Source: Elusimicrobia bacterium RIFCSPLOWO2_02_FULL_39_32 (GTDB lineage Bacteria > Elusimicrobiota > Elusimicrobia > 2-02-FULL-39-32). Taken from it: a DNA stretch of 64,000 nt. Shown here piece after piece: positions 63-46,717 of the stretch. Both the position numbers and the translations under genes were made by a program. Numbering within the stretch: position 1 is the stretch's first letter; the number at the start of each line of letters is the position of its first letter. Under the pieces are notes generated by a model. It did no database searches. It was not told the DNA's origin and worked only from the letters and a program-made list of their open reading frames with translations. The stretch is taken from assembly GCA_001800135.1 (NCBI GenBank), contig MGUU01000008.1, positions 1-64,000 on the forward strand. The letters run 5' to 3'.

Positions 63-91
63 TCTTCAACTTTTTGTAACATTTTTGTAAC
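63..91 (-). promoter_or_regulatory. Pho-box-like direct repeats, left edge
   Basis: On the minus strand there are three 7-mers on an 11-bp pitch, GTTACAA, GTTACAA and TTGAAGA, separated by A-rich 4-nt spacers. This is the same layout as the boxes before the porin-pst operon and the giant gene. A TACAAT hexamer lies downstream on the minus strand (38-43). The orientation points to a divergent, phosphate-regulated gene beyond the left edge. PhoB binding is inferred from the pattern. Confidence 0.5.
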
Positions 92-3463: not shown

Positions 3464-3487
3464 TTGAACAACTATAGGAGAATCAAA

Positions 3488-10591: not shown

Positions 10592-10619
10592 AAGCCACAA
10601 TTACATCAAAAAATTAAAC

Positions 10620-10782: not shown

Positions 10783-10835
10783 AAAGTTGCGTACGAAAAT
10801 AAATCGGAACGCATTCTTCGAGAGGGAGAACAATG

Positions 10836-28900: not shown

Positions 28901-31900
28901 TCAACTCTATAACCATCTGTTCTATAACTTACAGCAAATTCTGAATTGCGCAAAGGCACTGTGCTAAATATCCGAATGCTGGTATCATCTAAACCGCGCA
29001 ACGCTAAAGATTCTTTTAAATAATTTTTAAGAATTAATAAACCATCCATAGATGGCCGCACATGCCGTACCCCATTGAGATGATATGGCTCTCTTAAAGC
29101 CTCATAAGCGCTCATATCCTCTAAATCGTCGCTAACGACCAATATAGAATCAATATTATCTTCATTTAATATCTTGGAATCTTTAAGAATGGATTCACTG
29201 GAAATTTTAATTTTAGCTCCTTGAATATAGAGGTAGGTAAACCCCTGTTTTTCAAAATCGTTCTTATATTTTTCAAATTTTTTTACGTCAAAACCATCCA
29301 GATAGATGCGAATATGTTTAGGCAAACGTTTTTTAATCGCATGATAGAGAAATAAGACATCGCTCACATTCTTAACTCCATAAAAATTAAGAGAGAGTCT
29401 CTCATCTCCCATGAGATCAATGACTAGACTGGATGCAAAATGATCCAAAGGATTTCGCTGATTTGAATCAAATGGAATGTCGGATATTTCAACAGCTACC
29501 CTATTATAAACTCCCTTGGATTCTCTTTTTAATTTGGCTACTGGCGCTGGGATATATCTTTGACCTTCCGGCACCATTTTTCTATCGCTTTTAAATGGTT
29601 TCTTATCACTATCAGAAGAAGAAACAGATTTTTCTTTATCCCTTTCTAAAGACTCCTCTCTTTTATACTTATCCGGATCTTGAACCGCATCTAAAACAGC
29701 AGCTGCCCAAACATTTGCAAAGTCATAACCAAATAGGACTGTTACGGTTCTATGATCCACTATCACACTCCTAGGATCAAAATAGATAGAGCTCTCCCCT
29801 TGCACAAGACTAGGTCTTAAAGAATCGTATGGCTCTAAAACTTTAAGCCGCGAACCAGAAGCCTCTGCCACTTTTTTTAACCTTGAAACAACCTCCTCTT
29901 TAGTTAACTTTCGATCTAAAGTAAATGTGACTGCGGTTAAATGCGCATCGTACTGGCTGGATTGTACCTGAAGATAGCCTTTCCTCATTACTTTGGGCAA
30001 AAGATTTGCCATAGGAGCTGGAAGAATTTTACTGCCAACCACAATATCATGGCTCCTGTCGCGAGTAGGGTCAATAGCAGAATTGGTATGGACCACATGA
30101 CCTAACATATCCAAATCAGCAAATGCTGTTCGAGTTAAATTTACAGCCATCTCTACTGGAGTCATTTCATCAGTTGCCATGACAATATTTTTTGCTCCCA
30201 TTTGCCGATGGTGTTCAGGATCAATTTGACCGCCTGCTGCTTTATGAGCATAAATTACTGTATCTATTCCAAGTTTTTGCCAATTAGGAAGGACTTTGTT
30301 TGGATCTATTTTTTCTCCCTTCTTTATAGTTCCAAGAGCTTTGCTAAAAATGACTTTAATTGGAGAGGAGTGATTGATAATGATTGAATCTCCATCAGGA
30401 GCGATTTCAATATCGCTTTGCGGCATGATTTGGCGCAAATAGGCTACAAAGACATTTGTATCTAAAGGATTTTCCGTTGTTTCTTCCACATAGATATATT
30501 TAAGTATAACATCCTCTTTGCCGCGAAGCTGTTTGATTAATTGTCCTGAAACAACTTCATCTCCTCCATAAATCCCAATAATTTTTGGTTCGCTCTTTTT
30601 CCCTGTTTTTTCAGGATGCTGCGGAATTGATTGCGCGCTAAGGTTAACTTGATCTTGTCTTTGTTGAAGGGTTTTCAAATAAAAGTCATTTTCAAATTCA
30701 TCTTTTTCCCGTCTTTCAGCAGAACTCTGAATCTCTTTCAAAATATTGTCTGCTGCTACCCAGTCTGGAATCCATGCGCGAAGTGTCACTAAACGGCCAT
30801 TCCCCTGCACAGAAATGCTTTTATCTAAAATAAGAGGCTTATCATGTTCTTGCACGCTGATAGAATTAGGGATCCAGCCTCCTTCAGCAAAATAGATGGG
30901 CCAGCCTTGCAAATTAGCAGACCGTAAAATTTCCATCATTCCTTCAACATCCATTTTAATTCCTTCATCTAATATTAGATTTAACTGCGCATATCCTGCG
31001 CCTTCATGCGTATGAGACTCCCATTTTTCACCAAGACCTTTTTTAACTCCATGGAGCCGAAGATTTCTTGCGGCCTGATCTGATTTTTTCTGCAAGATAT
31101 GGCTTTCACCTGGAACCACTGAGATCAGTTCCCATTGTTTTAATTTATGGTTAAGAGCTCCATCTAAATACTCAATAAGGGGGGAAAGAGCAGTTGTGAG
31201 TCCTGTATTGTGATAGCGAACACGAGGTTTTGGGTTTGTATCTACAGGAGGATCCAATTCAGGATTTAGAACATGCGCCATTCTTCCTTCGTGCCAAGGT
31301 CGTTGACGTGGATCATCATCAAAATCATCTGGATCCTGGTCTGTTAAAAAAATAACATCTTTTGGTGATTCGCTTGAATATGAAACATATTTACCAGGTT
31401 TAATTACAATGGTTTTAGTCTGGCCTTGAGAATAGATGGAGATGCTCCATTCACTATTGCTCTGGAATTTGTCAACCTTTAGATCAAACTGAAACCTGCC
31501 TTGATAGGGGTTAGCTTTTAAATGGTCATAAAAGGCCTGGAACTCATTATCATTGTTAATTCCATAAATAGTTGAAATTTCAAAATTAGGATTAAACCCC
31601 TGTCCTCTTTTATCTCCCAATGCTCTGCGTACAATTTGTACAGCTGTATTTTTTATTGACAAGTTATCTCTCTTGCCAAATGCTCCATCCACATCTAACA
31701 CGATCTCTACTGGGACCATGAGAGTAACTTCGGTTGGTTCATCTTTTTCATCTTCTAAGATCGGAGCAAGATGATGCAGCGCTAATTCTTTAGCGTTGGA
31801 TTGCGTAGGCTGCGCCTCAGGAGCATTTTTCTCATCCCGGGCTAGTTTTAGTTTCCGAATCAGGTAAGGCCTAATCCCACCCCAAATAAGAGTAAAATAA

Positions 31901-34900
31901 ATCTCTTCCAAAAGAATTTCTCTGATCGCTCGTTTATCTCTTACTGAACTGGATGGTTCATTCTCAACATGGAGAATATCAGTTAATTCCATTAAAATTT
32001 TTTCCATTTGTCTTTCCCATGGATATGACGATTCTATTAATCCCTGTTTAAAAGAGAATGCTGAATTAATCTCATCATCTGAAGTGTCTGAACTCAAATC
32101 CCTCTTAATGTCCTGATATAGATCTTTTAAACGCCTAATCTCTTCAACTAAGGATGGGTTATCATAGGCCAAATCCTCCATCATGCTTAAGATCATGTTT
32201 TCAGAGGAGTCAGTTTTTATTTTTTCCTGAATTCCAGCCATCTCCTGCAAAACATCATTTCTATTTTTTCCAAGAATTCCTGGTTGTGAAGGAGCGGACT
32301 CTAAGGCAAGGATCGCTTTTGAGTAAATTTCTGGATCTATTGAGTCTAAATTTCTATTGAGCGCAATATCCCTTAATGTCCATATTGCTCTTATTTTTCC
32401 AGATAAAAAAACATTCTCATCCTTAATTGCCCGAGCTGCATCCTCTAAGAGTCTCTTCCAATAGCGCTGAACTTCTTCAAGTTCTTGAGGACTATATTGA
32501 GCACGCGCTGTTTCTGTTGGCCAAATAACATGGCGCAATAGGACAGATTCATATTCAGTTAATTTGAAATGTCTGGTAAGTTTTGAATAAAGAGAGCTCA
32601 ATTGATTTTTGTCAAGATCATGAAAAGTTCCTTTATCACCCACCACACCCTGTATCAGCCCTTTAACCTTTTCATCTTTGATTTGATCCATTGCAACTCT
32701 TAAAGGAGCATAGCGCAAACCAATTAGAATTTGAGAGGCTGGAATGAGACGCTTACTGTTTGCAAAAAGGTTGGAAAGAAGAGACTGGCTAAAAATTTTA
32801 TACCAGGAAACTCCATGACGTTTAAGTTGCTCATCTGCAGAATAGAGTTCATGCAATTTATTCAGAGCTTGCGTTAAAGATTCAATAGAAGAAGATTGAT
32901 TCTCATCTTCCCATGAGTTCCAAAATTCATTGATTGCGCGATTGATCGCTTTTTGTCTGCCAGTCCATTCCAAAGGTTTTATTGAGGTTGGAGCATATTT
33001 CCCACGAAATCTCCATGCCAATTCTCCTCCCATGGAAGCTGGCACAGCAAAGAAAAATTCCCCTTTCCATTGATTTTTCTTAATATTTTTGGAAAATGCT
33101 TCTGCCCGGCGCACAGCATCCTCTAAAGTATGAATATTCATTTTCCAGTTGCCTCCGGAAACTCCTCGAACCGCTTTTCCTTTGGCTAATGCATTTTCAG
33201 CAAAACGATCTGAAATTCGATCCGGATCTCCTGGTATAATGCTTCTGGTTCCAATTAAGCCTCCAATTACTTCCGGCAGTCTTCTTAATAAAGAAAGCCA
33301 TGTGCGTCTTTCCCATCCACCGCTTTGACCATAAACTGAAGAGGGTTTTACACTTCCTCCATAGAGTATCCCAACAGGGATTGGATCAGATTCAGAAAGA
33401 GAAGCTCCTCCTTGTTCCTTAATATGTTCTCTAATCGCTCCAGCAATAATTTGATTCGCCTCATGCATCTGATCTGCGGACATGCTAGTTCCAGAACCAA
33501 TAAAATCAATTGGCTCATAAGCAATTTTAATTTTTGGCAGATCCCTTAAACTGATCCCGTTCAATACCGCTTTGGTTTGCTTATGTAAACCCTGTTTCCA
33601 ATCTCCTTCTGCGCGATTTCTCTCTCCTATAGCAATCACAGGAATTAAACCATTGCGTATCACAGCCAAAGCTTGTTCATTGACTATAGGATCTCCTACT
33701 CCAAAAAATCGTCGGACCTCTGAGTGACCAATCAGAACATAGGTATATCCATCCCTTTTTACTTGTGTTAGATATGGATCAGAAAAATCCTCCAGATCCT
33801 GAAGAGCAAAATGGAGATTTGTGGGTTCAGCCTGCTGTCCGGGATTAAATAGTCTATTTTCCGATATGACATTTCCAACTCTGGTTAAATCCAGGTTTGC
33901 AGGAATTAAAACAGTTGTCATTTCTCTTAAATTTGAATTTTCTGCTAGGGCGGATTGAATAATTGCAGCGGTTTGTATGGAACTATTGCCATGAATTTTT
34001 GTGAAGTCAACTACTGCCATGGGCGGCCCGCGGAGAGCTCCCACAGGAGTTGGGGCACGCGCATGGTAAAATTTAGAAATTATCTCTAACATTTTTTGGA
34101 TTCCGTTCGGATCTTTAGCTACTGTTTCTGAGCCGATGAATATTCCATCTACCTCATGCGCTAATTTTTTAAGATAATCCGAAAGTTGAGAGCGTTCTGG
34201 AGTTTTCCCTCCTAAAAGAATCTTAACCCGATCAGCTTCCTCTTGAAAAAGTTGGCGCAAGTGTGGTTTTGAAGCCTGAGCAATCTCTCCTTTACTTCTT
34301 AACATAGGATATAGCGCATTACCTGCAGCTCTATAGAACCCATGCGCATCCTCTTTAGAAAGAAGAATTGGATTCCCTTCCTTATCAATTACTTGTGGAA
34401 CAACTACTGCGCTCCTTAGAGCCTTAGGCTGATTGACAAAACCCATGAGCTTTTCCCGAAACTCTCTTTTAAAACGATTTTCCAGACTATCTCTTTTCAA
34501 ATTTCCGGTATCATCTCTCTTCAAATCTTCTTCAGATAGGTTCACCACAATGATTGCAGCTAAAGTTTCTCCTTTGCCTTTAACTGCTCTTTGGATTTTT
34601 CTAGCAACTGTGACATTTGATTCGCCTGAAAGGCTAGCTGTTCCTTTTCTAGGATCAGGTATCAAAGCATAAGAAGCTCCTACATTCAAAGCTAAAGCTT
34701 TTGAAGTCTGACCAGTGAAAGCGCCGGAAGATTCAGGAGAAATATCCCGAACTCCCATGAAAAGTCCTGTTTCAGAAAAACGATCCCTAAAAATGGGCTG
34801 AACTTCTTTAGTTGGTTTTCTTTTGGAAAGCTCTTTATTCCAGAGACCCTGAAACTCATCATCTCTTACCTGTCTAAAATCATAGTGATCACTTAATTCT

Positions 34901-37900
34901 GAAGAAATCGCGCTAAAAAAATTCCTGTTATACTTAAGCATATCCATGCTGTCATCATGAATCTTTAGATAAAATTCATGCATAAGAGTAGAAAGATGGC
35001 TAAAATCAGTTAGCGTCACATTGCCATTACTATCCAATCCGTAAGATTGGTCTATCTTATGATCTGGATTGTGGATGCCTCTTGAATACATCTCTTTTTC
35101 CAATTGATAGACAGAATCAATTAGAGCTCTTTTGGCTTTTAAAGAAACTCTTTTACTTTTAAAAGGCCTATTTAAAAGAGTCACTTTTTCCTGTATGATG
35201 ACGAACTCATAAAACACGCTTCTACCATCAATGACCAAATGCACGTTGCGCAGTAAGCTCATTGGGGCAGAAATTCCTCCCAAATATTTTTTTGCTAATG
35301 CAAACCCATGCAGCACTTTATTCAAATCTTTTTTTGGAACTTTAATGACATAGGGAATTTTTGGATCAGAAGGTATAAAAACATCCATAAATTCACCTGA
35401 ACGATCTATGCTAAGAGGGCCTAAATCCATTTCTCGTGCATTAGCATCTGTTATCATGCCCTCAACAATCTTGGTAACTTCATCGCCTGATGATTCATCT
35501 GAAACAAGCGCAAAGTGAAAAGCAAATAGATGAAACGGCAAGAAAACAAGATTTACAAACAAGTGAGAGATAAAATGAGCATCTCTTCTAGCAGCGTTCT
35601 GGTCATATTGCTTTCTTAGTAATAAGGAAATTCCTTGAGCCATGAAACCAAATAGCGCCATGTTCATTCGTATGAACCCTAGTCCCATCCAACGAACCGT
35701 AAACTCTAAAGCGCCTCTCCAACCCTGACTATAGGTATGTTGGTTAAAAAGAAAAGTTCTGTAATCCTGCTCAATTGATTCAAATTCCTGAACAGGGGCA
35801 ACTAAAAGAGCTGCATAGGAGAGAACTATTGTTTTGGATAGGATTATAGAGAAACTATTTTTAGATGAGGACAATCGTTGAAACCATTCATAAGCAATTA
35901 AATCTTTAGAAGCTAATCCCAAACTACTTGCTGTTGTAAGAGCTATTCCACCTCTTTTTACAAAGCTAGAAGCGCTCTTTGTTGTAGAGATGAGCGCGCT
36001 ATCTCCTTGAGGGTCAATGCTCTTTCTTGCTGATCTACTTGTTTGTTCTACTCCTCGGAAAATACCTTTTCTTGCAGAAGTAGTCACTTTCTCAACTGTG
36101 TGACTAATATTTCTAGCAGAGACCTTTACTTTATCCATTGAGTGAATAAACCTCTTTGCATTGGATCGCAAATGAGGCACAAATCCAACAGGAGAAGAAT
36201 CCAGTCGTGCTACAGTGAGGATTTTTTTCCTATCTTTAGATAAATTAAGATCATAAGCAACTTTTGCTTCCTCTTTTTTTAAAATAACGCGCCTTAAATA
36301 ATCGCTTAATAACTGAACTTCTATTTTAAATTTGATGCCCAGTGATCCAGTTAAAGAATAAAAAACAGTTTGCGCATTGACTGGGTCAAATGCAGCAATG
36401 AGACTTGCCGCAAATAGCCGAACTCGATCTGGCCACATTAATTGAGAAACAAAAAGTTTTTCTCCATCAAAAAGTTTTTCTAAAGGCGTTTTTTCTTGGG
36501 TAAAAACAGATAAATATTCTGTGCCCTTTTCAGATTCAATTCTAGTTATCTTTGGAGCAAGGGTGATAACTGCTGCATTTGATTTTTTAAGAAGCTCTTC
36601 CATCCCTTGGGAATGGAATCCGCCGGTAATGAAAACCGACACTTTCGCATTTTCTTTGGAAATGGCTTGAAGTAAGTTTCTAGACATCGCTTCATCTCTA
36701 AGATGAGCGTATTCATAAAAGGAGGCGATCTTCTCAAGTTGCGGGAAAAATCGAGTTGACTCTTGAGGATCAAATTCTAAATGGCTATTTGATAATTCCT
36801 GAATCTTTTCCTTTGTTGGATATCTCAGACCCTGGGAAGGAGCATGATTTTGAAGGGAAAAATTTTTGTATTCTTTCCATTCTTCAGGCCCCAACTCGTA
36901 ATCAAGTAATTTTTTCGTAAGATAGAGCTGATAAGATTGAGCAACTAAATTTTTTTCTTGCTCACTCTGGCAAAGGGATTCATAAGCTAATCTTTCCATT
37001 TTCTTTAATTCAGCAATTAACTTATCAGCGGAAATAGTCTCTGCTGCCAGAATATAACGGATATAAGACTCCATTGCAGGATATGCCTTGCAATCAAGTC
37101 CTGAATTCTTACAGAGCTGGATGAGATAATTGTAAAAAGCAGCATGCTGTATATGACCTAAGCGATAAGCCACGCTGCTTTTAAGGAGACGATTCATTTG
37201 GGGAGATGTGAGTTTCTGAACTAAAATCTGAATCATGGCTTTGCGCTCTTTTTCTACTTGAGCAAAATCCAGTTTTTCTTCCATCATAAGAGCTTTTCTA
37301 AATGCGCTGATTTCTTGAGAAACTTTCTCTTGCTCTTCTGTAAGCGCTTTCAGATATTCTCCAAGCCGAATCTCATGCTTGCGGTAAGATTCAACCTTTT
37401 GATCTAAGGCTAAAAGTTTTGCGTTATAAATCTTTTCTTTTATTTGAGAAATTTGTGATATTTGTTGTTCAATATCCCTCTTCAAATTTTCAGCTTGTGA
37501 AACAGATTCTTTATAAGCCTGAACGTGGCTATGGTAAAGTTTTGAATCATCAATTCCAATAAATTTTGGGATAGCGGTTGAACTTGTGAGCGCGGCGTGA
37601 ATAGCTCCGGAAATTTTATTTTCTTTAAGCAAATAATCAGCAACTTTGCGCACTGATTCTTGATTTTTATAATTACGGAAATTGGAAAGCTGAATGGGTT
37701 CAAAAGCGCCTTCTAAACCTACAAAACTAATTTTTTCTTGGATGATCAGAGCTTGCAGAGAATTGGCTATATTTTTTTGAGCTTCCTCATTCTGATGCGC
37801 ATCCTGAATATGTAATATAAGCGGGTCGCTCGCTTTCCATTTAGGCGGGAAATAGGCGCGCTTAAAATTAGAGAATTGAAGGGGCAGAACCACTGGCAAT

Positions 37901-38244
37901 TCCGGCAGTTTTAGAGAAGAAAGCGGTTGAGATTTCAAACTGTTAAAGGTTTCACTATTGAATGAACCTTTTTCAAATGGCAGGGATAAAGAAGGAGCAT
38001 GCGGCAGTTTGGCTAATTGCAGGGGAAGAGACCCACGCTCTTGATCTCTATCCTGATCCTCCTCAACTAATTTTTGCTCTTGGCTCTTTTCTTTAAGTTG
38101 AAGAGCCGCTTCTCTTCTTTCTTGCCAAATCATTGCCTCTGCAAACGGGGGAACAATACTTGAATAAATAAAAGATAACGAAAATAAAGAAGCAAATATC
38201 TTTTTGACGCAACTAAATCTTTTTTTCTTTAACTGGAATTCCAT
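25990..38244 (-). CDS. Giant exported multidomain protein with tandem triosephosphate isomerase and GAPDH-like domains
   Basis: One open frame of 4,084 residues. Order: signal peptide (about 1-37, ending AEA); TIKI/ChaN-like domain (about 130-580, HIQDAHQN near 148 and GGFHSQG near H544); SAR-repeat helices (about 690-740); membrane segments near 795-910; pseudokinase-like domain (K968, H1058, D1061, D1080). Then TIM-1 (about 1155-1400, strands 3-8 only, catalytic His and Glu lost), TIM-2 (about 1409-1690, K1416, H1507 in GHSEVRR, E1577 in YEP, YGGS at 1628) and TIM-3 (from GNWKMN, K1701, strands 1-2 only). A helical region (about 1760-2170) precedes GAPDH-1 to -4 (about 2176-2500, 2552-2855, 2912-3210, 3245-3610). 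Only GAPDH-4 keeps SCTT (C3427) and the partner H3452. About four membrane segments (3653-3770) and an unrecognised tail end it. Function unknown; a Pho-type promoter precedes it. Confidence 0.85.
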   Translation of the reverse strand: MEFQLKKKRFSCVKKIFASLFSLSFIYSSIVPPFAEAMIWQERREAALQLKEKSQEQKLVEEDQDRDQERGSLPLQLAKLPHAPSLSLPFEKGSFNSETFNSLKSQPLSSLKLPELPVVLPLQFSNFKRAYFPPKWKASDPLILHIQDAHQNEEAQKNIANSLQALIIQEKISFVGLEGAFEPIQLSNFRNYKNQESVRKVADYLLKENKISGAIHAALTSSTAIPKFIGIDDSKLYHSHVQAYKESVSQAENLKRDIEQQISQISQIKEKIYNAKLLALDQKVESYRKHEIRLGEYLKALTEEQEKVSQEISAFRKALMMEEKLDFAQVEKERKAMIQILVQKLTSPQMNRLLKSSVAYRLGHIQHAAFYNYLIQLCKNSGLDCKAYPAMESYIRYILAAETISADKLIAELKKMERLAYESLCQSEQEKNLVAQSYQLYLTKKLLDYELGPEEWKEYKNFSLQNHAPSQGLRYPTKEKIQELSNSHLEFDPQESTRFFPQLEKIASFYEYAHLRDEAMSRNLLQAISKENAKVSVFITGGFHSQGMEELLKKSNAAVITLAPKITRIESEKGTEYLSVFTQEKTPLEKLFDGEKLFVSQLMWPDRVRLFAASLIAAFDPVNAQTVFYSLTGSLGIKFKIEVQLLSDYLRRVILKKEEAKVAYDLNLSKDRKKILTVARLDSSPVGFVPHLRSNAKRFIHSMDKVKVSARNISHTVEKVTTSARKGIFRGVEQTSRSARKSIDPQGDSALISTTKSASSFVKRGGIALTTASSLGLASKDLIAYEWFQRLSSSKNSFSIILSKTIVLSYAALLVAPVQEFESIEQDYRTFLFNQHTYSQGWRGALEFTVRWMGLGFIRMNMALFGFMAQGISLLLRKQYDQNAARRDAHFISHLFVNLVFLPFHLFAFHFALVSDESSGDEVTKIVEGMITDANAREMDLGPLSIDRSGEFMDVFIPSDPKIPYVIKVPKKDLNKVLHGFALAKKYLGGISAPMSLLRNVHLVIDGRSVFYEFVIIQEKVTLLNRPFKSKRVSLKAKRALIDSVYQLEKEMYSRGIHNPDHKIDQSYGLDSNGNVTLTDFSHLSTLMHEFYLKIHDDSMDMLKYNRNFFSAISSELSDHYDFRQVRDDEFQGLWNKELSKRKPTKEVQPIFRDRFSETGLFMGVRDISPESSGAFTGQTSKALALNVGASYALIPDPRKGTASLSGESNVTVARKIQRAVKGKGETLAAIIVVNLSEEDLKRDDTGNLKRDSLENRFKREFREKLMGFVNQPKALRSAVVVPQVIDKEGNPILLSKEDAHGFYRAAGNALYPMLRSKGEIAQASKPHLRQLFQEEADRVKILLGGKTPERSQLSDYLKKLAHEVDGIFIGSETVAKDPNGIQKMLEIISKFYHARAPTPVGALRGPPMAVVDFTKIHGNSSIQTAAIIQSALAENSNLREMTTVLIPANLDLTRVGNVISENRLFNPGQQAEPTNLHFALQDLEDFSDPYLTQVKRDGYTYVLIGHSEVRRFFGVGDPIVNEQALAVIRNGLIPVIAIGERNRAEGDWKQGLHKQTKAVLNGISLRDLPKIKIAYEPIDFIGSGTSMSADQMHEANQIIAGAIREHIKEQGGASLSESDPIPVGILYGGSVKPSSVYGQSGGWERRTWLSLLRRLPEVIGGLIGTRSIIPGDPDRISDRFAENALAKGKAVRGVSGGNWKMNIHTLEDAVRRAEAFSKNIKKNQWKGEFFFAVPASMGGELAWRFRGKYAPTSIKPLEWTGRQKAINRAINEFWNSWEDENQSSSIESLTQALNKLHELYSADEQLKRHGVSWYKIFSQSLLSNLFANSKRLIPASQILIGLRYAPLRVAMDQIKDEKVKGLIQGVVGDKGTFHDLDKNQLSSLYSKLTRHFKLTEYESVLLRHVIWPTETARAQYSPQELEEVQRYWKRLLEDAARAIKDENVFLSGKIRAIWTLRDIALNRNLDSIDPEIYSKAILALESAPSQPGILGKNRNDVLQEMAGIQEKIKTDSSENMILSMMEDLAYDNPSLVEEIRRLKDLYQDIKRDLSSDTSDDEINSAFSFKQGLIESSYPWERQMEKILMELTDILHVENEPSSSVRDKRAIREILLEEIYFTLIWGGIRPYLIRKLKLARDEKNAPEAQPTQSNAKELALHHLAPILEDEKDEPTEVTLMVPVEIVLDVDGAFGKRDNLSIKNTAVQIVRRALGDKRGQGFNPNFEISTIYGINNDNEFQAFYDHLKANPYQGRFQFDLKVDKFQSNSEWSISIYSQGQTKTIVIKPGKYVSYSSESPKDVIFLTDQDPDDFDDDPRQRPWHEGRMAHVLNPELDPPVDTNPKPRVRYHNTGLTTALSPLIEYLDGALNHKLKQWELISVVPGESHILQKKSDQAARNLRLHGVKKGLGEKWESHTHEGAGYAQLNLILDEGIKMDVEGMMEILRSANLQGWPIYFAEGGWIPNSISVQEHDKPLILDKSISVQGNGRLVTLRAWIPDWVAADNILKEIQSSAERREKDEFENDFYLKTLQQRQDQVNLSAQSIPQHPEKTGKKSEPKIIGIYGGDEVVSGQLIKQLRGKEDVILKYIYVEETTENPLDTNVFVAYLRQIMPQSDIEIAPDGDSIIINHSSPIKVIFSKALGTIKKGEKIDPNKVLPNWQKLGIDTVIYAHKAAGGQIDPEHHRQMGAKNIVMATDEMTPVEMAVNLTRTAFADLDMLGHVVHTNSAIDPTRDRSHDIVVGSKILPAPMANLLPKVMRKGYLQVQSSQYDAHLTAVTFTLDRKLTKEEVVSRLKKVAEASGSRLKVLEPYDSLRPSLVQGESSIYFDPRSVIVDHRTVTVLFGYDFANVWAAAVLDAVQDPDKYKREESLERDKEKSVSSSDSDKKPFKSDRKMVPEGQRYIPAPVAKLKRESKGVYNRVAVEISDIPFDSNQRNPLDHFASSLVIDLMGDERLSLNFYGVKNVSDVLFLYHAIKKRLPKHIRIYLDGFDVKKFEKYKNDFEKQGFTYLYIQGAKIKISSESILKDSKILNEDNIDSILVVSDDLEDMSAYEALREPYHLNGVRHVRPSMDGLLILKNYLKESLALRGLDDTSIRIFSTVPLRNSEFAVSYRTDGYRVETPTRLEGDLHNFVIEFDEELERDAVIALVGEMVRASGGRIEVTEEALASLDMVDNPVLAMISKPQITGKGRLWALPIWMGESGLAQAMIENLAQDAEDNPGNSKNKRQTATYSILPSVVPLEPKPRIKEMNGGKADLIISAVGGRTGKNMLLAAIGDPNVNILGVTLYKPTEEKVIATAKALNNDTVYGRPGIKFEYAGWDDKTNTFVILAGNNEKGWLRIDVFDGSSLSGLERQIAELRAKGFHPIYLHAAGSGYHRFKEKDWFEIQGDIMIYGNPGKGESLLVIPGAMNLQDKALQELIRAEEIFTLGSCTTGALAVALYFVKHMADFVSAITLHELTNDQRLNHGPLHDVMERMFAAARTMLLSSSGAGQTIGKAMPELIGRTTAVALREGYGGASVVNVRIKLKPEYVGIPTEDVKEIFRQAYERPEMSGIFHLHDKPYPIDSDEVKGYLHSSVLDLNSVRVEGEFLSFDAWYDNERGFSSRMIGLAKILTIIRSFEGKTTATATLNFVRDGLLPRWFSIQYTAEEYVRKASLRENLLFIGTVAFALAIENLLHLLFTGNVSLPSFETFNGLVWGSFWLAHLAEFIYFRIKGQPEKAPFGNVVVAGLVSAVNIFVLPILATTFFHALGVNIPWLENLTVLLLSFPTHQFANYLGSAKIGKTFKEAKGIQVKKSSSSKNSRTYSISDGFARAISKLEKEERLYSFSNMQKIVPMILQNTAQSLDVQTVLGDKGISNPALDLLRAVDDPQEFYEYLGQKLQEETGSTMSSKEINRSLSQVVLAGFKNDKFQNVLVKSKMEDYSSTVALLDPLVKNKVRYAEQIISAYHLSAKGVSNSRLTILSGNLSEAEIWAINRLSVKRGISLEVKADPGLIRFREGNYSLDPAVLDEIVGTVRQKSSVPLRLFIPRNLVGNLKELLDNIEQYENLKNAVISFLSLIGNSLNATPLLDTNMQEDIQEIGVFAQQQ

Positions 38245-38355: not shown

Positions 38356-38421
38356 ATTTTATTAAAAACAGCCATAACTTTTCTTAAACTTTTTGTAAAT
38401 TTTTTGTGACAAAAATGAAAC
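38356..38421 (-). promoter_or_regulatory. Pho-type promoter of the giant gene
   Basis: On the minus strand: GTTTCAT, GTCACAA, TTTACAA on an 11-bp pitch (38393-38421), with TTTAAGA continuing the series (38382-38388). TTTAATAAAAT (38356-38366) follows exactly 26 bp after the third repeat. The porin-pst promoter has the same order and the same 26-bp distance. A second candidate -10 (TATACT) lies nearer the gene. Regulation by PhoB is inferred. Confidence 0.65.
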
Positions 38422-38575
38422 GTTTCATGAGAAAAAAAGATATTTTCAGACTAAAAAGTCTAAATATATCACATGAAAGTCAGGGAGGGGCGATCTAAAG
38501 AATAAATTCTTGCAATATGATTTCTAGGTAGTTAAAGAAATAGAGGATATTGTGTTATCTAGCTATTTTTTTATT

Positions 38576-39235
38576 TCAAACAGCATGGTGTCGGATATCT
38601 TTTCCCAACACCATGTAGATGACATCCTCGGCAATATTCGTAGCGTGATCCCCAATCTTTTCTAAATTCCTGGAAATTAAAATAAGATCAATAAATTGTT
38701 TTGCCTTTAAGGGGGAATTCTTAACCAAATCCAAAACATCCTCAAAAACTTTAGATTTTAAAGTATCCAGCTCCTCATCCTTTTCTAATACGCTCTTGGC
38801 AAGTTCCACATCCCTTTTAGCAAAAGCATCTAAACTTTGCTTAACCATTTCCTGCGCAATGGAGGACATCTTTGGAATCTCATAAATAGGCGCGATGGGT
38901 ATCTCTTTTAAAAAATGGAACGAGGAGGTCTGGGCAATATTAACCGCTTGATCTGCAACCCGTTCTAGCTCTGAATTGATTTTAGTGGCTGCCATAATGG
39001 TTCTTAAGTCAGTTGCTTCTGGCTGATAGAGAGCTAATATCTTCACTCCCGTCTCATCAATCTCCATTTGCAGCTTGTTAATTTTTTCTTCCCTTTCCAG
39101 CACTTGGCTACAGAGTTCCTGATTTCTTTCATTTAATATCTTTGCGGATAAAGAAATCATCTCTTCAGCTAAACTTCCCATATAAAGAACTTTTTCTTTA
39201 ATGCTGTTTATTTCCTCTTCAATATGACTTTTCAT
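38576..39235 (-). CDS. phoU: Phosphate transport system regulator PhoU
   Basis: 219 aa, all-helical, with the two PhoU repeats. The metal-binding-type block is AATKINSELERVADQAVNIAQ in the first half and ISRNLEKIGDHATNIAEDVIY in the second. PhoU links PstSCAB activity to PhoR and represses the regulon when phosphate is plentiful. It is the last gene of the porin-pst operon, 79 nt after pstB. The giant gene's promoter lies just beyond it. Confidence 0.95.
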   Translation of the reverse strand: MKSHIEEEINSIKEKVLYMGSLAEEMISLSAKILNERNQELCSQVLEREEKINKLQMEIDETGVKILALYQPEATDLRTIMAATKINSELERVADQAVNIAQTSSFHFLKEIPIAPIYEIPKMSSIAQEMVKQSLDAFAKRDVELAKSVLEKDEELDTLKSKVFEDVLDLVKNSPLKAKQFIDLILISRNLEKIGDHATNIAEDVIYMVLGKDIRHHAV

Positions 39236-39314: not shown

Positions 39315-40070
39315 TTATCCATACCTGCCGGAAATATAATCTTCCGTATCCTTTTTTGTCGGATTAGTAAATATTTTACTTGTCGGCCCATCTTCAATTA
39401 ATTCGCCTAAAAGAAGAAAAGCGGTCTGATCAGAAATTCTTGCTGCTTGCTGCATATTATGGGTAACTATAATGATAGTGTAATGATCTTTAAGTTCACG
39501 CATCAGTTCTTCAATTCTAGCTGTGGACTGGGGATCTAATGCAGAACAAGGCTCATCCATAAGCAATAGATCAGGTTTTACAGCCAAAAGCCTGGCGATA
39601 CAAAGCCTTTGTTTTTGTTCCAATGACAGATGAAGCGCTGACGTATGTAGCTTGTCTTTTAAATCATCCCAAAGGAGCACTAATTTTAAACACCTTTCCA
39701 CAATCTCATCTAAAGAATTTTTACTAATATGGTTATGTATTCTCTGGCCAAAAGCAACATTTTCATAAATAGAAAGAGGAAAAGGATTTGGGCGCTGAAA
39801 CACCATTCCCACTCTTTTTCGCAAAGTCACCAAATCGGTCTTTGAATCTAAGATATTCATCCCGTCAATAAAAACCTCTCCTTGCATCTTCACCCCTTCT
39901 ACTAAATCATTCATTCTATTAAAGACGCGAAGCAAGGTGGATTTGCCGCAACCAGAAGGACCAATAATTGCAGTGATCTGTTTTTCTTCAATGGCAATTT
40001 GAATATTTTTAAGAGCATGAAAATCGCTGTACCAAAGATTCAATTGATTTACATTTACTTTAAAGCTCAT
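39315..40070 (-). CDS. pstB: Phosphate ABC transporter ATPase PstB, copy with degenerate signature motif
   Basis: 251 aa. Walker A is GPSGCGKST (about residues 37-45), the Q-loop is VFQRPNPFP, Walker B is LLLMDEP and the switch histidine is in [11 protein letters not shown], all canonical. The ABC signature LSGGQ is replaced by LSLEQKQR (about residue 148). Such a subunit cannot complete the partner's ATP site but can use a signature donated in trans. It starts with a 4-nt ATGA overlap at the end of the other pstB. Confidence 0.93.
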
Positions 40071-40813
40071 CCGAATTTACCTCTAATATAGTCATCTGTG
40101 CGCTTATCTAAAGGAGCAGTAAACATCTTAGCTGTTTTGTCAATTTCAATCAGTTCTCCATTTAAAAAAAATGCGGTTCTATCTCCTACCCTTGCAGCCT
40201 GTTTAACGTTATTGGTTACTAATACGATTGTATAACTCTCTTTTAATTCCAACATCGCCTGTTCAACTTTTGCTGTAGAGATAGGATCCAACCCGGAACA
40301 AGGCTCATCAAATAAAATCAGTTCAGGTTCAACAGCCAGTGTTCTTGCTATACAAAGCCGCTGTTGTTGTCCACCTGACAATTTAAACGCAGATGTGTTT
40401 AAACGATCTTTAACCTCTTCCCAAAGATAAGCTTTTTTTAAAGCCTGCTCTACGATCTTTTCTAAATTTTTTTTCTTTTTTTCACCATGAATTCTGGCAC
40501 CATAAGCAACATTTTCAAAAATCGTCAATGGTAGAGGAAGAGGCAGGGCAAAGACCATCCCAACTTTTTTTCGCAAAAATTGGGCATCCAACATTTTAAT
40601 ATTTTTTTGATCTAGCTCTACTCTTCCATTCACTTTAAAGCCATTCTCCAACTCATTCATACGATTCAACATTCTTAAAAAAGTGGTTTTGCCGCTATTA
40701 GATGGCCCAATAATGCTTAATATCTCATTTTCATAAATTTCTAAATTTATATCCTTTAAAACCTGAAAAGAGTCAAACCAAATATTAAGATGCTCTATCT
40801 TAATCTTTACCAT
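40067..40813 (-). CDS. pstB: Phosphate ABC transporter ATPase PstB paralogue lacking Q-loop glutamine and switch histidine
   Basis: 248 aa. The ABC signature LSGGQQQR is intact and Walker A is GPSNSGKTT. The Q-loop reads VFALPLPLP (Gln to Ala) and the switch histidine position reads [10 protein letters not shown] (His to Asn). These losses are complementary to those of the adjacent pstB, so the pair should form a heterodimer with one good and one degenerate ATP site. It overlaps pstA by 7 nt and the next pstB by 4 nt, which favours matched synthesis. Confidence 0.93.
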
Positions 40814-41652
40814 TTCTTTTTTTTCCTAAACTGGTAACGGATAACAATAGCGACCAAGTTCATAAAAAAAACCAAAATCAATAAAACCAAAGCTGTCCCA
40901 TACCTAATTTTTTCATCTACATTTGGAACTTGAGTGGAAATAACATAAAGATGATAGGGTAAAGCCATTGCCTGATCAAAGATACTCTTAGGAAATTGCG
41001 GCAAATAGAACGCAGCAACTGTAAAAAGAATAGGAGCAGTTTCACCCGCAGCGCGTCCTACCCCTAAAATAGTGCCTGTGAGAATTCCGGGAATTGCGTT
41101 GCCAAGAACAATATGCCTGATCGTTTGCCATTTGCTAGCCCCTAAAGAATAACTGACTTCGCGGAAAGAGGTGGGTACGCTCTCTAAAGCTTCGCGCGAG
41201 GCAGTAATAATGATTGGCAAGATCATGATCCCCAAGGTAAGCGATCCTGACAAAATGGAAGCTCCAAATTTAAAAAAAATCACAAAAAATGCAAGACCAA
41301 AAAGACCGTAAACCACAGAAGGCACGCCTGCTAAATTAACAATAGATAATTTAATCAAACGGTTTAAAAAATGTTCTTTAGTATATTCGCTTAAATAAAT
41401 CGCAGCGCCCAGTCCAATAGGCAAAGCAAAAAGAATCGCTCCGAAAACAATATAGATGGTTCCAATAATAGCTGGGAAGATGCCGCCAGCCCGCATTCCC
41501 TGACGAGGAATATCAGTTAAAAACTGCCAGGTCATTGCAGGAAAACCCTTTTGGATGATAATGCAAACAATCAGACCCACAGGCAAAATAATAAGCAGTG
41601 TTGCCAAAAATAAAATAAAAAAAGCGATTTTTTCTGTTTTTTTCGAATCCAT
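40807..41652 (-). CDS. pstA: Phosphate ABC transporter permease PstA
   Basis: 281 aa with six predicted membrane helices. The family sequence MTWQFLTDIPRQGMRAGGI and the coupling-loop segment EVSYSLGASKWQTIRHIVLG, which contacts the ATPases, are present. It partners PstC in the inner membrane. Its start codon shares one base with the pstC stop codon (TAATG). Confidence 0.95.
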   Translation of the reverse strand: MDSKKTEKIAFFILFLATLLIILPVGLIVCIIIQKGFPAMTWQFLTDIPRQGMRAGGIFPAIIGTIYIVFGAILFALPIGLGAAIYLSEYTKEHFLNRLIKLSIVNLAGVPSVVYGLFGLAFFVIFFKFGASILSGSLTLGIMILPIIITASREALESVPTSFREVSYSLGASKWQTIRHIVLGNAIPGILTGTILGVGRAAGETAPILFTVAAFYLPQFPKSIFDQAMALPYHLYVISTQVPNVDEKIRYGTALVLLILVFFMNLVAIVIRYQFRKKKKW

Positions 41653-42518
41653 TATATTTTTTTTCTATGTAAAAATAGATCTGCAGTCACATTGATCATA
41701 AAACTTACAACAAAAAGCACAATTCCAATAGCGAATAAAGCAAAGTAATGTTCACTGCCAACAACAGCTTCACCCATCTCAGCGGCAATGGTTGCTGTCA
41801 GTGTCCTAACAGGTTGTAAAATGCTCGTAGGAATGACTGCAGCATTACCAGTAATCATCATTACTGCCATGGTTTCACCAATCACTCTGCCTAAGCCTAA
41901 CATGACAGCTGCAAAAATTCCAGAAGAAGCTGCGGGCAGGAGAACACGATAAATAGCCTGCCACTTTGTAGCTCCTAAAGCTAAAGCTCCCTCTTTATAA
42001 GATTTAGGCACAGAATAGAGCGCATCTTCTGCAATAGAAACTATGGTGGGCATGGCCATAAAAGCCAACATGATAGAGCCTGAAAGCGCGGTTAAACCTG
42101 TTGGGATATGAAAAATATTTTTTACCCAAGGAACTAAAGTCACCATGCCAATAAATCCCAATACTACGCTAGGGATAGCTGCTAGGAGTTCTATTCCAGC
42201 TTTTAAAATCTCTTTTATGCTAGGGGGAGAAACTTCAGCAATAAAAATAGCGCAACCCACTCCAATAGGAATAGAGATAACCGCAGCGCCAAAGGTTACT
42301 AAAAGAGATCCTAAAATTAAGGGTAAAATCTCTAATTGAGCTGGCTCTGAAATCGGATACCAATTTTTTCCAAAAAGAAACTGGCCTGGAGTTATAAACT
42401 CAAGTAAGGCAAGCCCTTCTTTCAACAAAAATAAAAAGATAAGTATTACAAAAAAAATTGAAGCTAATCCTGAAATCAGGATAAGTTTTTCTATAATAAA
42501 CTCTTTAAATTTTTGCAC
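41652..42518 (-). CDS. pstC: Phosphate ABC transporter permease PstC
   Basis: 288 aa with six membrane helices. The coupling loop reads YKEGALALGATKWQAIYRVLL. The preceding AGIELLAAIPSVVLGFIG block is typical of PstC. It starts 3 nt after pstS ends and is translationally coupled to pstA. Confidence 0.95.
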   Translation of the reverse strand: MQKFKEFIIEKLILISGLASIFFVILIFLFLLKEGLALLEFITPGQFLFGKNWYPISEPAQLEILPLILGSLLVTFGAAVISIPIGVGCAIFIAEVSPPSIKEILKAGIELLAAIPSVVLGFIGMVTLVPWVKNIFHIPTGLTALSGSIMLAFMAMPTIVSIAEDALYSVPKSYKEGALALGATKWQAIYRVLLPAASSGIFAAVMLGLGRVIGETMAVMMITGNAAVIPTSILQPVRTLTATIAAEMGEAVVGSEHYFALFAIGIVLFVVSFMINVTADLFLHRKKI

Positions 42519-42520
42519 AA

Positions 42521-43381
42521 CTATTTTTTGATAGGGACAAAATCAGTTTTTTGAACAATCTCCTGCCCCTCTTTAGAGAGCATGAAATCAACAAATTTTT
42601 TTACAAGAGCTTGAGGTTGGCCATTGGTATAGATAAGCAATGGTCTAGATATAGGATAAGCGCCAGTAATGACATTTTCTATGGTTGGCTCAATAGTTTT
42701 AGACTTTCCATCTTTGGCAACAAAAATGGTCTTTTGTTTTGGAGAAATATATCCCATCCCATAATAACCAATAGCTCCGGGATTAGTTGCAATTTCATCT
42801 GCAATCGCTTGAGACGAAGGCATCATTAAGGCGCTGGCAGCGAACTCTTCTTTACCAGAAAGATTTCCTTTTCTTAATACATGTTCCTTAAAATAAACAT
42901 GCGTGCCAGAATTTACTTCTCTAGAAAGGATGACGATCTTTAAATCTTTTCCTCCCAACTCCTTCCAATTAGAAATCTTGCCTGTAAAAATATCAGCCAG
43001 TTGCCCTATTGTCAACTGTTTAATAGGATTTTGAGGATTTACCACAACAGCTAACCCATCCAGACCCACCTTAATTTCATAAGGCACGATCCCTTTTTTC
43101 TTTGCAATGGCGATCTCCTTTTCTTTAATGTTTCTGGAAGAATTGGCAATGTCGCAAGTACCGCTAATCAAACTAGAAATCCCGGTTCCTGATCCTCCGC
43201 CTGTCACAGCCACAAAATCACCTGGATTTTTTTCCATGTAATTTTCTGCCCAAGCTTGAGATAAATTAACCATGGTGTCCGATCCTTTGATTTGAATCGA
43301 ATTTCTACTGCTTGCAGCATATAGAAAACCTGCTGTTAAAGATAAAATCAAACTCATGACTATTTTTTTAGTTGGTTTCAT
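42521..43381 (-). CDS. pstS: Periplasmic phosphate-binding protein PstS
   Basis: 286 aa with a signal peptide (about residues 1-22, ending LYAAS). The binding-protein blocks QIKGSDTMVNLSQAW, AVTGGGSGTGISSLISGTCD and SREVNSGTHVYFKEHVL carry the phosphate-contacting Ser/Thr/Asp/Arg residues expected for the family. It belongs to the shorter PstS type common outside enterobacteria. It follows the porin by 19 nt, in the same operon. Confidence 0.95.
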   Translation of the reverse strand: MKPTKKIVMSLILSLTAGFLYAASSRNSIQIKGSDTMVNLSQAWAENYMEKNPGDFVAVTGGGSGTGISSLISGTCDIANSSRNIKEKEIAIAKKKGIVPYEIKVGLDGLAVVVNPQNPIKQLTIGQLADIFTGKISNWKELGGKDLKIVILSREVNSGTHVYFKEHVLRKGNLSGKEEFAASALMMPSSQAIADEIATNPGAIGYYGMGYISPKQKTIFVAKDGKSKTIEPTIENVITGAYPISRPLLIYTNGQPQALVKKFVDFMLSKEGQEIVQKTDFVPIKK

Positions 43382-43400: not shown

Positions 43401-44438
43401 TCAAAATTTCGCTTCTGTATGAATAAAAAATATGCTTTCATCCTGCCGGGTTAGAGACCTTCTTTCTTGCTGAGTATAAAGATGATCCAAAGCAACTCTC
43501 ACCCCTTTAGTTACTTGATATCCTAAACCTGAGAAAAAGCGCATCCTACTATCTCCACCAAAGTGAATGTCAGGATCATACTTGTCAAACCTGGCAAATA
43601 ACCAAAACTTTTCTATTGGCGTGACAACAGTATAAAACGAAAAGCCTTCTCCCCTAGAGGGCGCAGCTTGCGCGCTATTGTCCGCATTAAAATAATTCCC
43701 TGCCAGATTCAGATATTTTGACTCGTATGAGAGTCCGCCATAGAGCCTGTCTCTCAAGGTTGTTTCGTTCTTTTCACCTTTATGGACCAACGCGTTTAGT
43801 TTCAATCCTTTGAATAGCTCATGCGTTCTTTCAAAAGGAATAATCGCAACTTTTCCTGTATAATCTTTAAACCTTCCACCTCCGCTATAGGATGTGGTTT
43901 CATTGCCTCCAGTTCCATCGCTGCCTGTGCCTTCTCCATTGCCAATCATGGCATCATAAGCAAAAAAAGGAATTTGCCCGCTTAGCCGAACCCCTCTGTC
44001 AGAGGCAGGAAGAAGTCCCTCTATATCTTCCAATATTTTACTCACAAAACGATGTTTCCAGATTCCCTCTTCAAATCCACGCCAAGGGTTTGCAACAAGT
44101 CCAAAGAATAGTTTTGCAGCCTTATGCAAGTTCAATCGAAGCTCTGCATTCTTTAAAAAGATTCGATTATTCTTATTGTCGCGTGAGGTAAGATTCGCTT
44201 CTAGGTTAATAAATGCGCTGACTTTATCATCAACCTTTGCATCCATATTAAGATAAATTCTTGAGACCTCAAAAGCGCTATAATTTTGGGCAGTGGTTCC
44301 ATTCTGTAAATGTTGGGATGCGACAAATTCATAGTGCGCAAAAATAAGACCACCCGGTTTCACTTCTAAAGCGCTGGCAGCTTGCGAATAAATTATTCCT
44401 AAGGTAAGAACTGTCATGACCACAGATATTGATTTCAT
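43401..44438 (-). CDS. Outer-membrane porin of the phosphate operon (OprP/OprO-like)
   Basis: About 345 aa. The ATG at 44438 begins a normal signal peptide (MKSISVVMTVLTLGIIYSQA, cleaved near ASA); the in-frame GTG at 44471 would add a charged extension before it. The mature protein looks like a beta-barrel with YEFVASQHLQNGTTAQNYS and a closing LTRQDESIFFIHTEAKF, ending in phenylalanine. It is the first gene behind the Pho-type promoter and lies upstream of pstS, so it probably passes phosphate or other anions. Family membership is judged from pattern and position. Confidence 0.75.
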   Translation of the reverse strand: MKSISVVMTVLTLGIIYSQAASALEVKPGGLIFAHYEFVASQHLQNGTTAQNYSAFEVSRIYLNMDAKVDDKVSAFINLEANLTSRDNKNNRIFLKNAELRLNLHKAAKLFFGLVANPWRGFEEGIWKHRFVSKILEDIEGLLPASDRGVRLSGQIPFFAYDAMIGNGEGTGSDGTGGNETTSYSGGGRFKDYTGKVAIIPFERTHELFKGLKLNALVHKGEKNETTLRDRLYGGLSYESKYLNLAGNYFNADNSAQAAPSRGEGFSFYTVVTPIEKFWLFARFDKYDPDIHFGGDSRMRFFSGLGYQVTKGVRVALDHLYTQQERRSLTRQDESIFFIHTEAKF

Positions 44439-44492
44439 TGATTTTATCCATCTCCTTTGATCGCTTACCAAAATTTTACTGTACTTGTTTTC

Positions 44493-44558
44493 ATCTTATT
44501 AAATGGATCAAAAAAGAGCGATTGCGGGCAGGTAAAATCTATGTAACAATTATATGAC
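44493..44558 (-). promoter_or_regulatory. Pho-type promoter of the porin-pst-phoU operon
   Basis: On the minus strand: GTCATAT (44552-44558), GTTACAT (44541-44547), TTTACCT (44530-44536), each 11 bp apart. Exactly 26 bp then separate the last repeat from TTTAATAAGAT (44493-44503). The 7+4 repeat pitch is that of Pho boxes. It sits just past the 3' end of phoR and about 55 bp before the porin ATG. Confidence 0.7.
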
Positions 44559-44570
44559 TAAAAAAATAGC

Positions 44571-46046
44571 TTAACTAAATGGCAAAATCACAGAAAAAGT
44601 GGATCCTTCATTTAATTTGCTTTCAACTTTAATTTCTCCATGATGAGCCTCCACAATATGTTTCACGATTGAAAGTCCAAGTCCTGTACCTCCAAATTCT
44701 CTAGATCTAGCCCTATCCACTCTATAAAATCTTTCAAATATTCTAGGTACTTCATTCTCTGGAATTCCTATGCCTGTATCTTTTATGGAAATAGTCAAAT
44801 TTTTATCATCTAGCAGTTTGGTATCTACAATTACTCTGCCTCCTTCCTTATTAAATTTAATCGCATTCTCCAAGAGATTAAGGAAAAGCTGTTTCAGCTC
44901 TTCTCTTGAGCCTAGAATAGGTGGGAGGTTTGGATCGCAATGAAACTGAAATTCTATTCTATTCCCTTGAGTTAAAGGAATAAGTGTTGATTTAAGTTCC
45001 TCTAATAATTCATCCACTGAAACTGGATGTAACTGCATTTGTCTTTTTCCAGACTCAATAGAAGTTAAGTCAAGCAAATTGTTGACCAGATGGGTAAGAC
45101 GTTTGACCTGAGAATGAATTATTTCTACAAATTCTTGGTTATGCTCCTTATCAAAAAGCGCTCCTTGCAGCAAGGTTTCAGCAAAACCTTGAATACTGGT
45201 AAGAGGGGTTCTAAGTTCATGAGAAACATTGGCTACAAAATCTCTTCTAACCTGCTCTAATTTATAAATTTTAGTTATATCATGCATGACCAGCAAAACA
45301 CCCGTGCAAGCTCCATTAGTTTTTAGAGGTAAAGTGTGAACTTCAAAAATATTTTCATCAGGAAGAAAAAGGTGAATCGTCTCAAAATGAATTTGATTCG
45401 TAATGATCGCATTTTGGATAAGTTCTGTAAGCCTTGCATGCCGGATAATTTCTTGATAAGGTTTGTGAAGAACCTCCTCAATCTTTACAGAAAAAAGTTT
45501 GCAAGCAGCAGGATTGATTAAAAATAGTTTACCTTTTAAATCCACAGCAATAACCTGTTCTGCCATTGTGTTTAAAACAGAAAAAATTTCTTGTTTTTCA
45601 ACTTTAATTTGATTGATACTGCTTTCTAATTGATCTACCATCAAATTAAAGGATCTGCCTAGGTCCGCGAGCTCATCTTCAGTTTGAAACCTCACTCTTT
45701 TTTTTAAAAAACCTTCTAAAATTAGATTAGCAACAGAGGTTATCTGCCTGACAGGCTGAATAAACCACTCGGATAAAAAATAAACTATTATGAATCCTAA
45801 AAAAATATTGGACGCGCTAAATAGGATAAGTAAATAACTTAAATCTTTAGCCTTATTCTGAGCTTGAATTGTGGAAATAAACTGATTAGGATGTTCTGTT
45901 GAGCGAAGAGATGAATTAGAATTGATATTAAAATCTTTGTTATAGTTTTTTATAACTAAAACATAAGTAAAAACTAGTGGGACAACAAAAAGTAAAGAAA
46001 AAGCAAAGGCTAATTTTCTTGAAAATTTCTTGGCTATCCATTTCAT
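44571..46046 (-). CDS. phoR: Phosphate-regulon sensor histidine kinase PhoR
   Basis: 491 aa. Two membrane segments near residues 12-30 and 70-92 flank a short periplasmic stretch. A HAMP linker follows (about 90-145), then a PAS domain (about 150-255), the phosphoacceptor block VANVSHELRTPLTSIQGF (histidine near residue 273) and an ATPase domain with NAIKFNKEGG, DTGIGIP and FGGTGLGLSIV. It overlaps phoB by 4 nt. The neighbouring pst operon supports the phosphate role. Confidence 0.92.
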   Translation of the reverse strand: MKWIAKKFSRKLAFAFSLLFVVPLVFTYVLVIKNYNKDFNINSNSSLRSTEHPNQFISTIQAQNKAKDLSYLLILFSASNIFLGFIIVYFLSEWFIQPVRQITSVANLILEGFLKKRVRFQTEDELADLGRSFNLMVDQLESSINQIKVEKQEIFSVLNTMAEQVIAVDLKGKLFLINPAACKLFSVKIEEVLHKPYQEIIRHARLTELIQNAIITNQIHFETIHLFLPDENIFEVHTLPLKTNGACTGVLLVMHDITKIYKLEQVRRDFVANVSHELRTPLTSIQGFAETLLQGALFDKEHNQEFVEIIHSQVKRLTHLVNNLLDLTSIESGKRQMQLHPVSVDELLEELKSTLIPLTQGNRIEFQFHCDPNLPPILGSREELKQLFLNLLENAIKFNKEGGRVIVDTKLLDDKNLTISIKDTGIGIPENEVPRIFERFYRVDRARSREFGGTGLGLSIVKHIVEAHHGEIKVESKLNEGSTFSVILPFS

Positions 46047-46717
46047 TGAGAAATTTTATACCCTACATTCTTTACAGTAACCAAATGATTGCTCTCAGAC
46101 CCAAGTTTAGCTCTTAAACGAGCCACATGCTGATCCACGGTTCTAGTATCAATTTCTGGAGCCTGCTCAAAACCCCACACCTGTTCCAGTAACTGCTCCC
46201 GGGTTAAAACTCTTCCCTTTGCTCCCAGTAAAACCTTTAAAAGCGAAAATTCTTTTGAACTTAAATTAACTGGTTTATTTCTTAATGTAACCTCATAGCG
46301 CTCCAAATCTATCTCTAATTCACCCATCTGAAGCGATTCTATTTCTGATCCTTGGTCATGGGATCGTCTTAATACGGATTTAATTCTAGCAGCCAGCTCC
46401 TTCACGCTAAAGGGTTTGGTTAAATAATCATCAGCGCCTAGTTCAAGCCCTAAGACCCGATCTGTTTCATCCTTTTTAGCTGTAAGCATAATGATAGGAA
46501 CCTTACTCTCTTTTCTTACCTGTTTGCACAGTTCAATCCCATTCATTTTAGGAAGCATTAAATCCAGGATAATCAGATTGGGTTTTATTTTTTTAAATAA
46601 AACATATCCCTCCTCACCATTATAAGCGGCAAAAAAAGCATAACCTTCCTTTTCTAGATTGTACTTAAGAAGCTTTACAATCTCCTTCTCATCTTCAATC
46701 ACAAGAATTTTGGTCAT
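46043..46717 (-). CDS. phoB: Phosphate-regulon response regulator PhoB
   Basis: 224 aa. The receiver domain (about 1-120) has the acidic pair DE near residues 9-10, the phospho-aspartate in LIILDLMLPKMNG and the conserved lysine in LTKPFS. The C-terminal winged-helix domain (about 130-224) is of the OmpR/PhoB type with VDQHVARLRAKLG. It is the likely reader of the 11-bp-pitch repeats before the porin-pst operon and the giant gene. No such repeats are clear before phoB itself. Confidence 0.93.
   Translation of the reverse strand: MTKILVIEDEKEIVKLLKYNLEKEGYAFFAAYNGEEGYVLFKKIKPNLIILDLMLPKMNGIELCKQVRKESKVPIIMLTAKKDETDRVLGLELGADDYLTKPFSVKELAARIKSVLRRSHDQGSEIESLQMGELEIDLERYEVTLRNKPVNLSSKEFSLLKVLLGAKGRVLTREQLLEQVWGFEQAPEIDTRTVDQHVARLRAKLGSESNHLVTVKNVGYKISQ

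Follow-up and report, generated by a model that had tools for sequence, protein, structure and literature searches.

The 4084-aa giant gene (25990..38244, minus strand) of the window, by which is meant the whole 64,000-nt stretch of DNA analysed here, with its first letter at base 1 of contig C8 in the host genome (G000; 27 contigs, 2.52 Mb in total), is preceded by a promoter element that occurs in about 40 copies in this genome and is common to many of its giant genes. Because the giant genes have this promoter in common they probably form one regulon, with a response regulator of the OmpR/PhoB type as the best candidate to read the element. On the sequence evidence we moderately favour the view that this one promoter serves a whole regulon of giant proteins that are secreted or lie at the surface, the regulator most likely being one of two PhoB-like proteins with genes together on contig C17, termed RR2 and RR3, and not PhoB itself. 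The gene itself was defined from the list of open reading frames and its translation together with an alignment of the N-terminal family (A2), and its product has a signal-like N-terminus with the motif PPFAEAMIWQERREA. The protein also contains triosephosphate-isomerase-like (Pfam TIM, 9e-34) and GAPDH C-terminal-like (Gp_dh_C, 5e-16) domains, at residues 1492-1636 and 3447-3592, which are odd in a protein with a secretion-like N-terminus. Elsewhere in the window there are two cobalamin riboswitches on the plus strand (1931-2141 and 10610-10791).

The promoter site occupies 66 bp on the minus strand (38421-38356) and reads GTTTCAT-TTTT-GTCACAA-AAAA-TTTACAA-26 nt-TTTAATAAAAT, every letter and distance given for these three 7-mers in the initial annotation being correct on re-reading. 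The core box, GTCACAAAAAA-TTTACAAAAAG-TTTAAGA (38382..38410, minus strand), consists of two 11-bp direct repeats and a degenerate third and was identified by an exact pattern match, by a 22-site alignment (A1) and by a profile search in which it scores 56.2 bits (E 5.6e-15). Upstream of the core lies a less conserved repeat, GAAACGTTTCATTTTT (38411..38426, minus strand; columns 1-16 of alignment A1), which contains GTTTCAT and has an identical phase in about half of the element copies. The box has its first G in GTCACAA, and the -10 hexamer TAAAAT (38356..38361, minus strand) is placed 49 nt from this G. The site at the left edge of the window (63..91, minus strand), to which attention had also been drawn, is a genuine second copy of the box, both by exact pattern match and by profile (E 1.9e-11); it faces the contig end and its gene is absent from contig C8.

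Using the intergenic region as a blastn query against the host genome identified 25 places, with nearly all matches limited to the approximately 50 bp of the element. The aligned copies give the consensus GTYACAAAAA-W-KTTACAAAAAG-TTKAAGA-AAAGTT, usually with one further degenerate repeat upstream. The exact pattern has 31 matches in the genome and its reversed control none, while allowing up to two mismatches gives 45 matches against one for the reversed control; the profile (R1) returns about 42 copies at E<1e-3. As such the earlier argument that chance is unlikely holds overwhelmingly for the element of the giant gene, whereas for its likeness to the pst promoter the outcome is equivocal (see below). 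The geometry is fixed: of 82 distinct copies drawn from the host and related genomes, about 70 have their best -10 hexamer at an offset of 48 or 49 nt counted from the first G, and no -35 consensus is present in the element copies. The proposal that the 7+4 pitch is that of a Pho box is borne out for the promoter of the giant gene, which has the 11-bp direct repeats, the -10 at a fixed distance and no -35 consensus. Promoters of Pho-box architecture are of the kind bound by response regulators of the OmpR/PhoB family.

A strong constitutive promoter that needs no regulator of its own, its 11-bp-phased A-tracts curving the DNA or serving as an UP element, would account for the A5 tracts that repeat on the 11-bp pitch, and the regulator proposed here is itself a candidate. 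Such a promoter is nevertheless unlikely, since G and C positions (G0, C4, C15, G21 and G27) show no variation in any of the 22 aligned sites, the A-tracts can be replaced by T-tracts (AAATTT, TTTTT) while GTTACA is kept, there is no -35, and the element is restricted largely to a single gene family and does not mark genes expressed in general.

That restriction is seen in the genes downstream. The downstream gene is readable for 30 of the exact copies; in 22 of these an ORF of 1000 aa or longer comes immediately after the box, the largest being 13,470 aa with several running past the end of the stretch examined, and in two more one or more short leader genes separate the box from ORFs of 11,471 and 10,729 aa. 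The remaining six precede genes of 152-722 aa, including those for a CheY-like protein and a LacI-type regulator, with 152-aa and 277-aa genes also among the small targets. In a sample independent of individual boxes, comprising all of contigs C16 and C10 together with the window, in total 823 kb with 478 ORFs that reach 100 aa (start codons called mechanically), a box was present within 450 bp of 10 of the 27 ORFs that reach 1000 aa compared with six of the 451 smaller ones (Fisher p=3.5e-10), and two of these six are leaders of giant genes. The box marks a gene family and not length as such, since large ORFs that lack the N-terminus of the giants, for example an SMC-like 1174-aa and a 1091-aa ORF, have no box. 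The N-terminus common to many giants comprises a signal-like segment and the motif W-x-E-R-R (alignment A2).

On contig C16 giants of 10,729, 6,135 and 8,020 aa follow one another behind a single box (C16:206901-283991), and no box was found upstream of several array giants (6135, 8020 and 3512 aa), which, like the few small target genes, counts against the regulon of giants unless the array genes are read through; the C16 array represents either one very long transcript or the presence of unseen promoters. A protein of about 280 aa with the motif LLTLxSFFHFSGLNNGFT is often encoded between the box and the giant gene (C16:284599-285438, C16:331263-332129; L111, L121, L218, L219 and L223), with no NCBIfam matches for the copy tested. 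In addition, the 17-mer TGTCCTGTTTTAATGCT is found close to six contig ends of the host genome, at a distance of about 80 bp or less (C3:57, C5:96823, C16:51, C21:49, C24:52 and C25:35), some of them adjoining giant-gene boxes, and is probably a repeat that breaks the assembly at contig ends.

The element is conserved in relatives. Each of the eight genomes from the same GTDB family has it, in 3-47 copies, while 51 other genomes of the class have 0-2 weak copies each, and the downstream genes in the relatives are mostly giants of the same kind, often preceded by the approximately 280-aa companion protein. Giants with the WxERR motif are also found in families f4, f6, f11 and f12 of the class, where they have a diverged box upstream (for example TTTACAAAAGTGTTACGACTTCTTAATGCAATCTTAAGA...TATACT) whose pitch is again 11 bp and whose offset to the -10 is nearly unchanged; in shuffling tests with 200 shuffles each, this diverged box reached p<=0.05 in 16 of 20 regions and then in four of six more. 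These observations bear on whether the element could be a dispersed repeat, or could have hitchhiked with a recent duplication of the 5′ ends of the giants, with no regulatory role of its own. The giants are indeed a multigene family and a few copies (L010 and L014) have longer common flanks. Against this, the similarity ends near the -10, the distance to the start codon ranges from about 20 to 380 bp, unrelated genes (LacI-type, CheY-like and RR2) carry the element too, and the pattern is conserved across families. Likewise, at the orthologous giant of the same-genus genome G001 the box and the -10 (TAAGAT, with the offset kept) are conserved despite the divergence of the leader after the -10. 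On orientation, spacing and flanks the dispersed repeat was rejected, and we give it very little probability.

Directly upstream of the 4084-aa giant gene, and on the same strand, is an operon in the order phoB-phoR-porin-pstS-(permeases)-two pstB-phoU. It begins with PhoB (46043..46717; Response_reg and Trans_reg_C), identified by its linkage to pst with a TIGR02154 score of 237 bits that is below the cut-off, and a PhoR-like histidine kinase (44571..46046; HAMP, PAS, HisKA and HATPase_c). The first gene of the pst operon (43401..44471) is called porin-like from its position and order, having no match in Pfam or NCBIfam, and is followed by a pstS family gene (42521..43381; TIGR02136, above the cut-off) and two permeases (PF00528) named by gene order for the pstC (41652..42518) and pstA (40807..41652) positions. 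Next are a PstB-type ATPase (40067..40813; TIGR00972, 347 bits, just above the cut-off), pstB (39315..40070; TIGR00972, 384 bits) and phoU (38576..39235; TIGR02135), which is immediately upstream of the promoter of the giant gene, all on the minus strand. The single pst operon thus has two adjacent PstB-type ATPases (39315-40813), and an ATPase-like ORF pair is likewise present in G004. A simple scan revealed no intrinsic terminator between phoU and the giant-gene box, so that the giant gene may be read through from pst.

The promoter of the porin-pst operon (44493..44558, minus strand) has Pho-box-like repeats of its own, and the letters and spacings reported for it, GTCATAT-AATT-GTTACAT-AGAT-TTTACCT-26 nt-TTTAATAAGAT, are correct. 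Its -10, TAAGAT, is offset from GTTACAT by 49 nt, as is TAAAAT from GTCACAA in the giant box, and the repeats are conserved in G001 and partly in G004. On the 32-position layout of the initial annotation, which was picked after both sites had been seen, the giant and pst sites agree at 24 positions; among 901,030 positions the only other sites to reach at least 24 of 32 are giant-gene boxes, making pst the best non-giant match in this sample, and a distant kinship of the two sites is therefore possible. Counting identities over all 66 positions proved uninformative in such AT-rich DNA, where the two sites agree at 34 and 494 positions reach at least 33. The stronger claim, that the giant gene shares its promoter architecture with the pst operon, is reduced to a weak likeness. 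With a matrix built from the genome-wide giant boxes the pst site at its exact register ranks about 1,900-3,000th of 900,706 positions, and the profile search (R1) did not return the pst promoter at E<=1. In G004, which has 33 giant boxes, the pst homologue ranks about 88,000-116,000th by the same matrix, and the pst promoter there carries a conserved box of its own, TGTCATAT/TTTTACT, in which GTTACAAAAA is missing.

If PhoB bound both the pst site and the giant boxes, the giants would belong to the phosphate regulon and the giant proteins would be made on phosphate starvation. In keeping with this, the giant boxes have Pho-box architecture and share the -10 offset of pst, the pst site is the best non-giant match on the 32-position layout, and PhoB (8 kb away), pst and phoU adjoin the 4084-aa giant gene. 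Moreover PhoB is present in nine of nine genomes of the family, and TGTYACAAAAW is near the E. coli Pho box, in which two 11-bp repeats consist of CTGTCAT and a further 4 bp (PMC2648988). However, a scan of the genome should on this reading yield other phosphate genes, and none was recognised among the box targets inspected in the host or its relatives; apart from a small number of short genes, the inspected targets encode giant secreted proteins. The low matrix rank of pst, and the pst promoter of G004 with no box in a genome that has 33 of them, likewise speak against PhoB as the reader of the giant boxes. Nor does the presence of PhoB follow the element across genomes, orthologs being found in many genomes that have neither the box nor giants, while none was found in G022, which is 100% complete and has giants and box-like sites. 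In the host genome and in G001 the pst operon with phoU at its end leads into the giant gene, but this adjacency is not kept in G004. We regard membership of the phosphate regulon as improbable, and the predicted induction of the giant protein on phosphate starvation is not supported by anything beyond the architecture.

Just three regulators of the OmpR family are present in each of G000, G001 and G004, namely PhoB, RR2 and RR3. RR2 (C17:37507-38205) is most similar to PhoB models, with RegX3 as the nearest PDB sequence, and in the host genome a divergent box, pointing away from RR2 towards a 4876-aa giant, is located some 20 bp from its start codon. This adjacency is kept in G000, G001, G003 and G006, is degenerate in G008 and is absent in G002, and the gene beyond the box varies among genomes, being a giant, a CheY-like gene or a 182-aa ORF. 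A regulator gene beside a site of its own family is common in autoregulated systems. RR3 (C17:17560-18255), with no box adjoining it, is 20 kb from RR2 in the same signalling island (C17, 9-39.4 kb), which also holds an NtrC-like 463-aa protein, several CheY-like proteins, a giant gene and a histidine kinase; the two regulators are 10-21 kb apart also in G001, G006 and G022.

In a regulator tree, which took in part of the regulators of the other families, RR2 forms a clade of 15 members (support 0.97) and RR3 one of 17 (support 0.994), both drawn only from families f1, f4, f6, f11 and f12, those with giants. These five families may form one clade, so that the co-occurrence of regulators and giants is not independent evidence. 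RR2 as the sole regulator was rejected, as its seemingly perfect co-occurrence with giants had mixed RR2 and RR3 orthologs, which the tree separated, and no RR2 was found in G028, a 96% complete genome with both giants and box-like sites. RR2 alone thus cannot be universal, and with RR3 present in nine of nine giant-bearing genomes of at least 94% completeness, "RR2 or RR3" is favoured over either alone.

The sequences show the element, its fixed spacing, its targets, its conservation and the linkage to RR2, and from these we infer protein binding, activation, the identity of the regulator and a signal. A phosphorylated winged-helix regulator of the OmpR/PhoB family, RR2 or RR3, would bind as a dimer or as tandem dimers to two or three of the 11-bp repeats, between about -60 and -30 and thus where a -35 hexamer would otherwise lie, and would recruit the housekeeping RNA polymerase to the -10 hexamer, which follows the first repeat at 48-49 nt. 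Dozens of giant genes could thereby be switched on at once in a coordinated manner, and the divergent box at the start codon of RR2 would permit its autoregulation. For giant proteins of a related phylum a role in attaching to other cells or preying on them has been proposed (PMC10066038), and a signal from cell contact or from nutrients would thus be plausible for the putative giant regulon. We see an even chance that this extends to five or more families of a candidate Elusimicrobia class, in which the dozens of giants per genome would form one regulon under RR2 or RR3, a single programme answering one cue from the environment or from a partner cell.

The site bound by PhoB is made up of two 11-bp repeats with 7 conserved and 4 looser bp apiece (PMC2648988), and the element resembles the Pho boxes of E. 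coli PhoB and mycobacterial RegX3 in this structure, in its activated-promoter position replacing the -35 and in the PhoB-like character of RR2. It differs in sequence (GTYACAAAAA/KTTACAAAAAG/TTKAAGA as opposed to CTGTCAT in E. coli) and in its targets, which are giant genes and not the phosphate genes of the PhoB regulon. The giants themselves are like the giant proteins described in Omnitrophota and Elusimicrobiota, very large, poorly annotated and probably exported (PMC10066038, PMC11573180, PMC12057145), and enriched in Elusimicrobiota (PMC11573180). Those studies describe the proteins whereas their promoter is described here, and text searches of the literature found no described promoter or regulon of giant genes.

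The shared giant-gene promoter corrects the phosphate-starvation reading and names RR2 and RR3 as two testable regulators, and the element provides a sequence handle for finding further members, including small companion genes. What is known of the giants of these uncultured bacteria comes mostly from gene models; a promoter common to them shows the giant proteins to be one functional set for the cell, and it speaks for the giant ORFs being genuine genes that are expressed.
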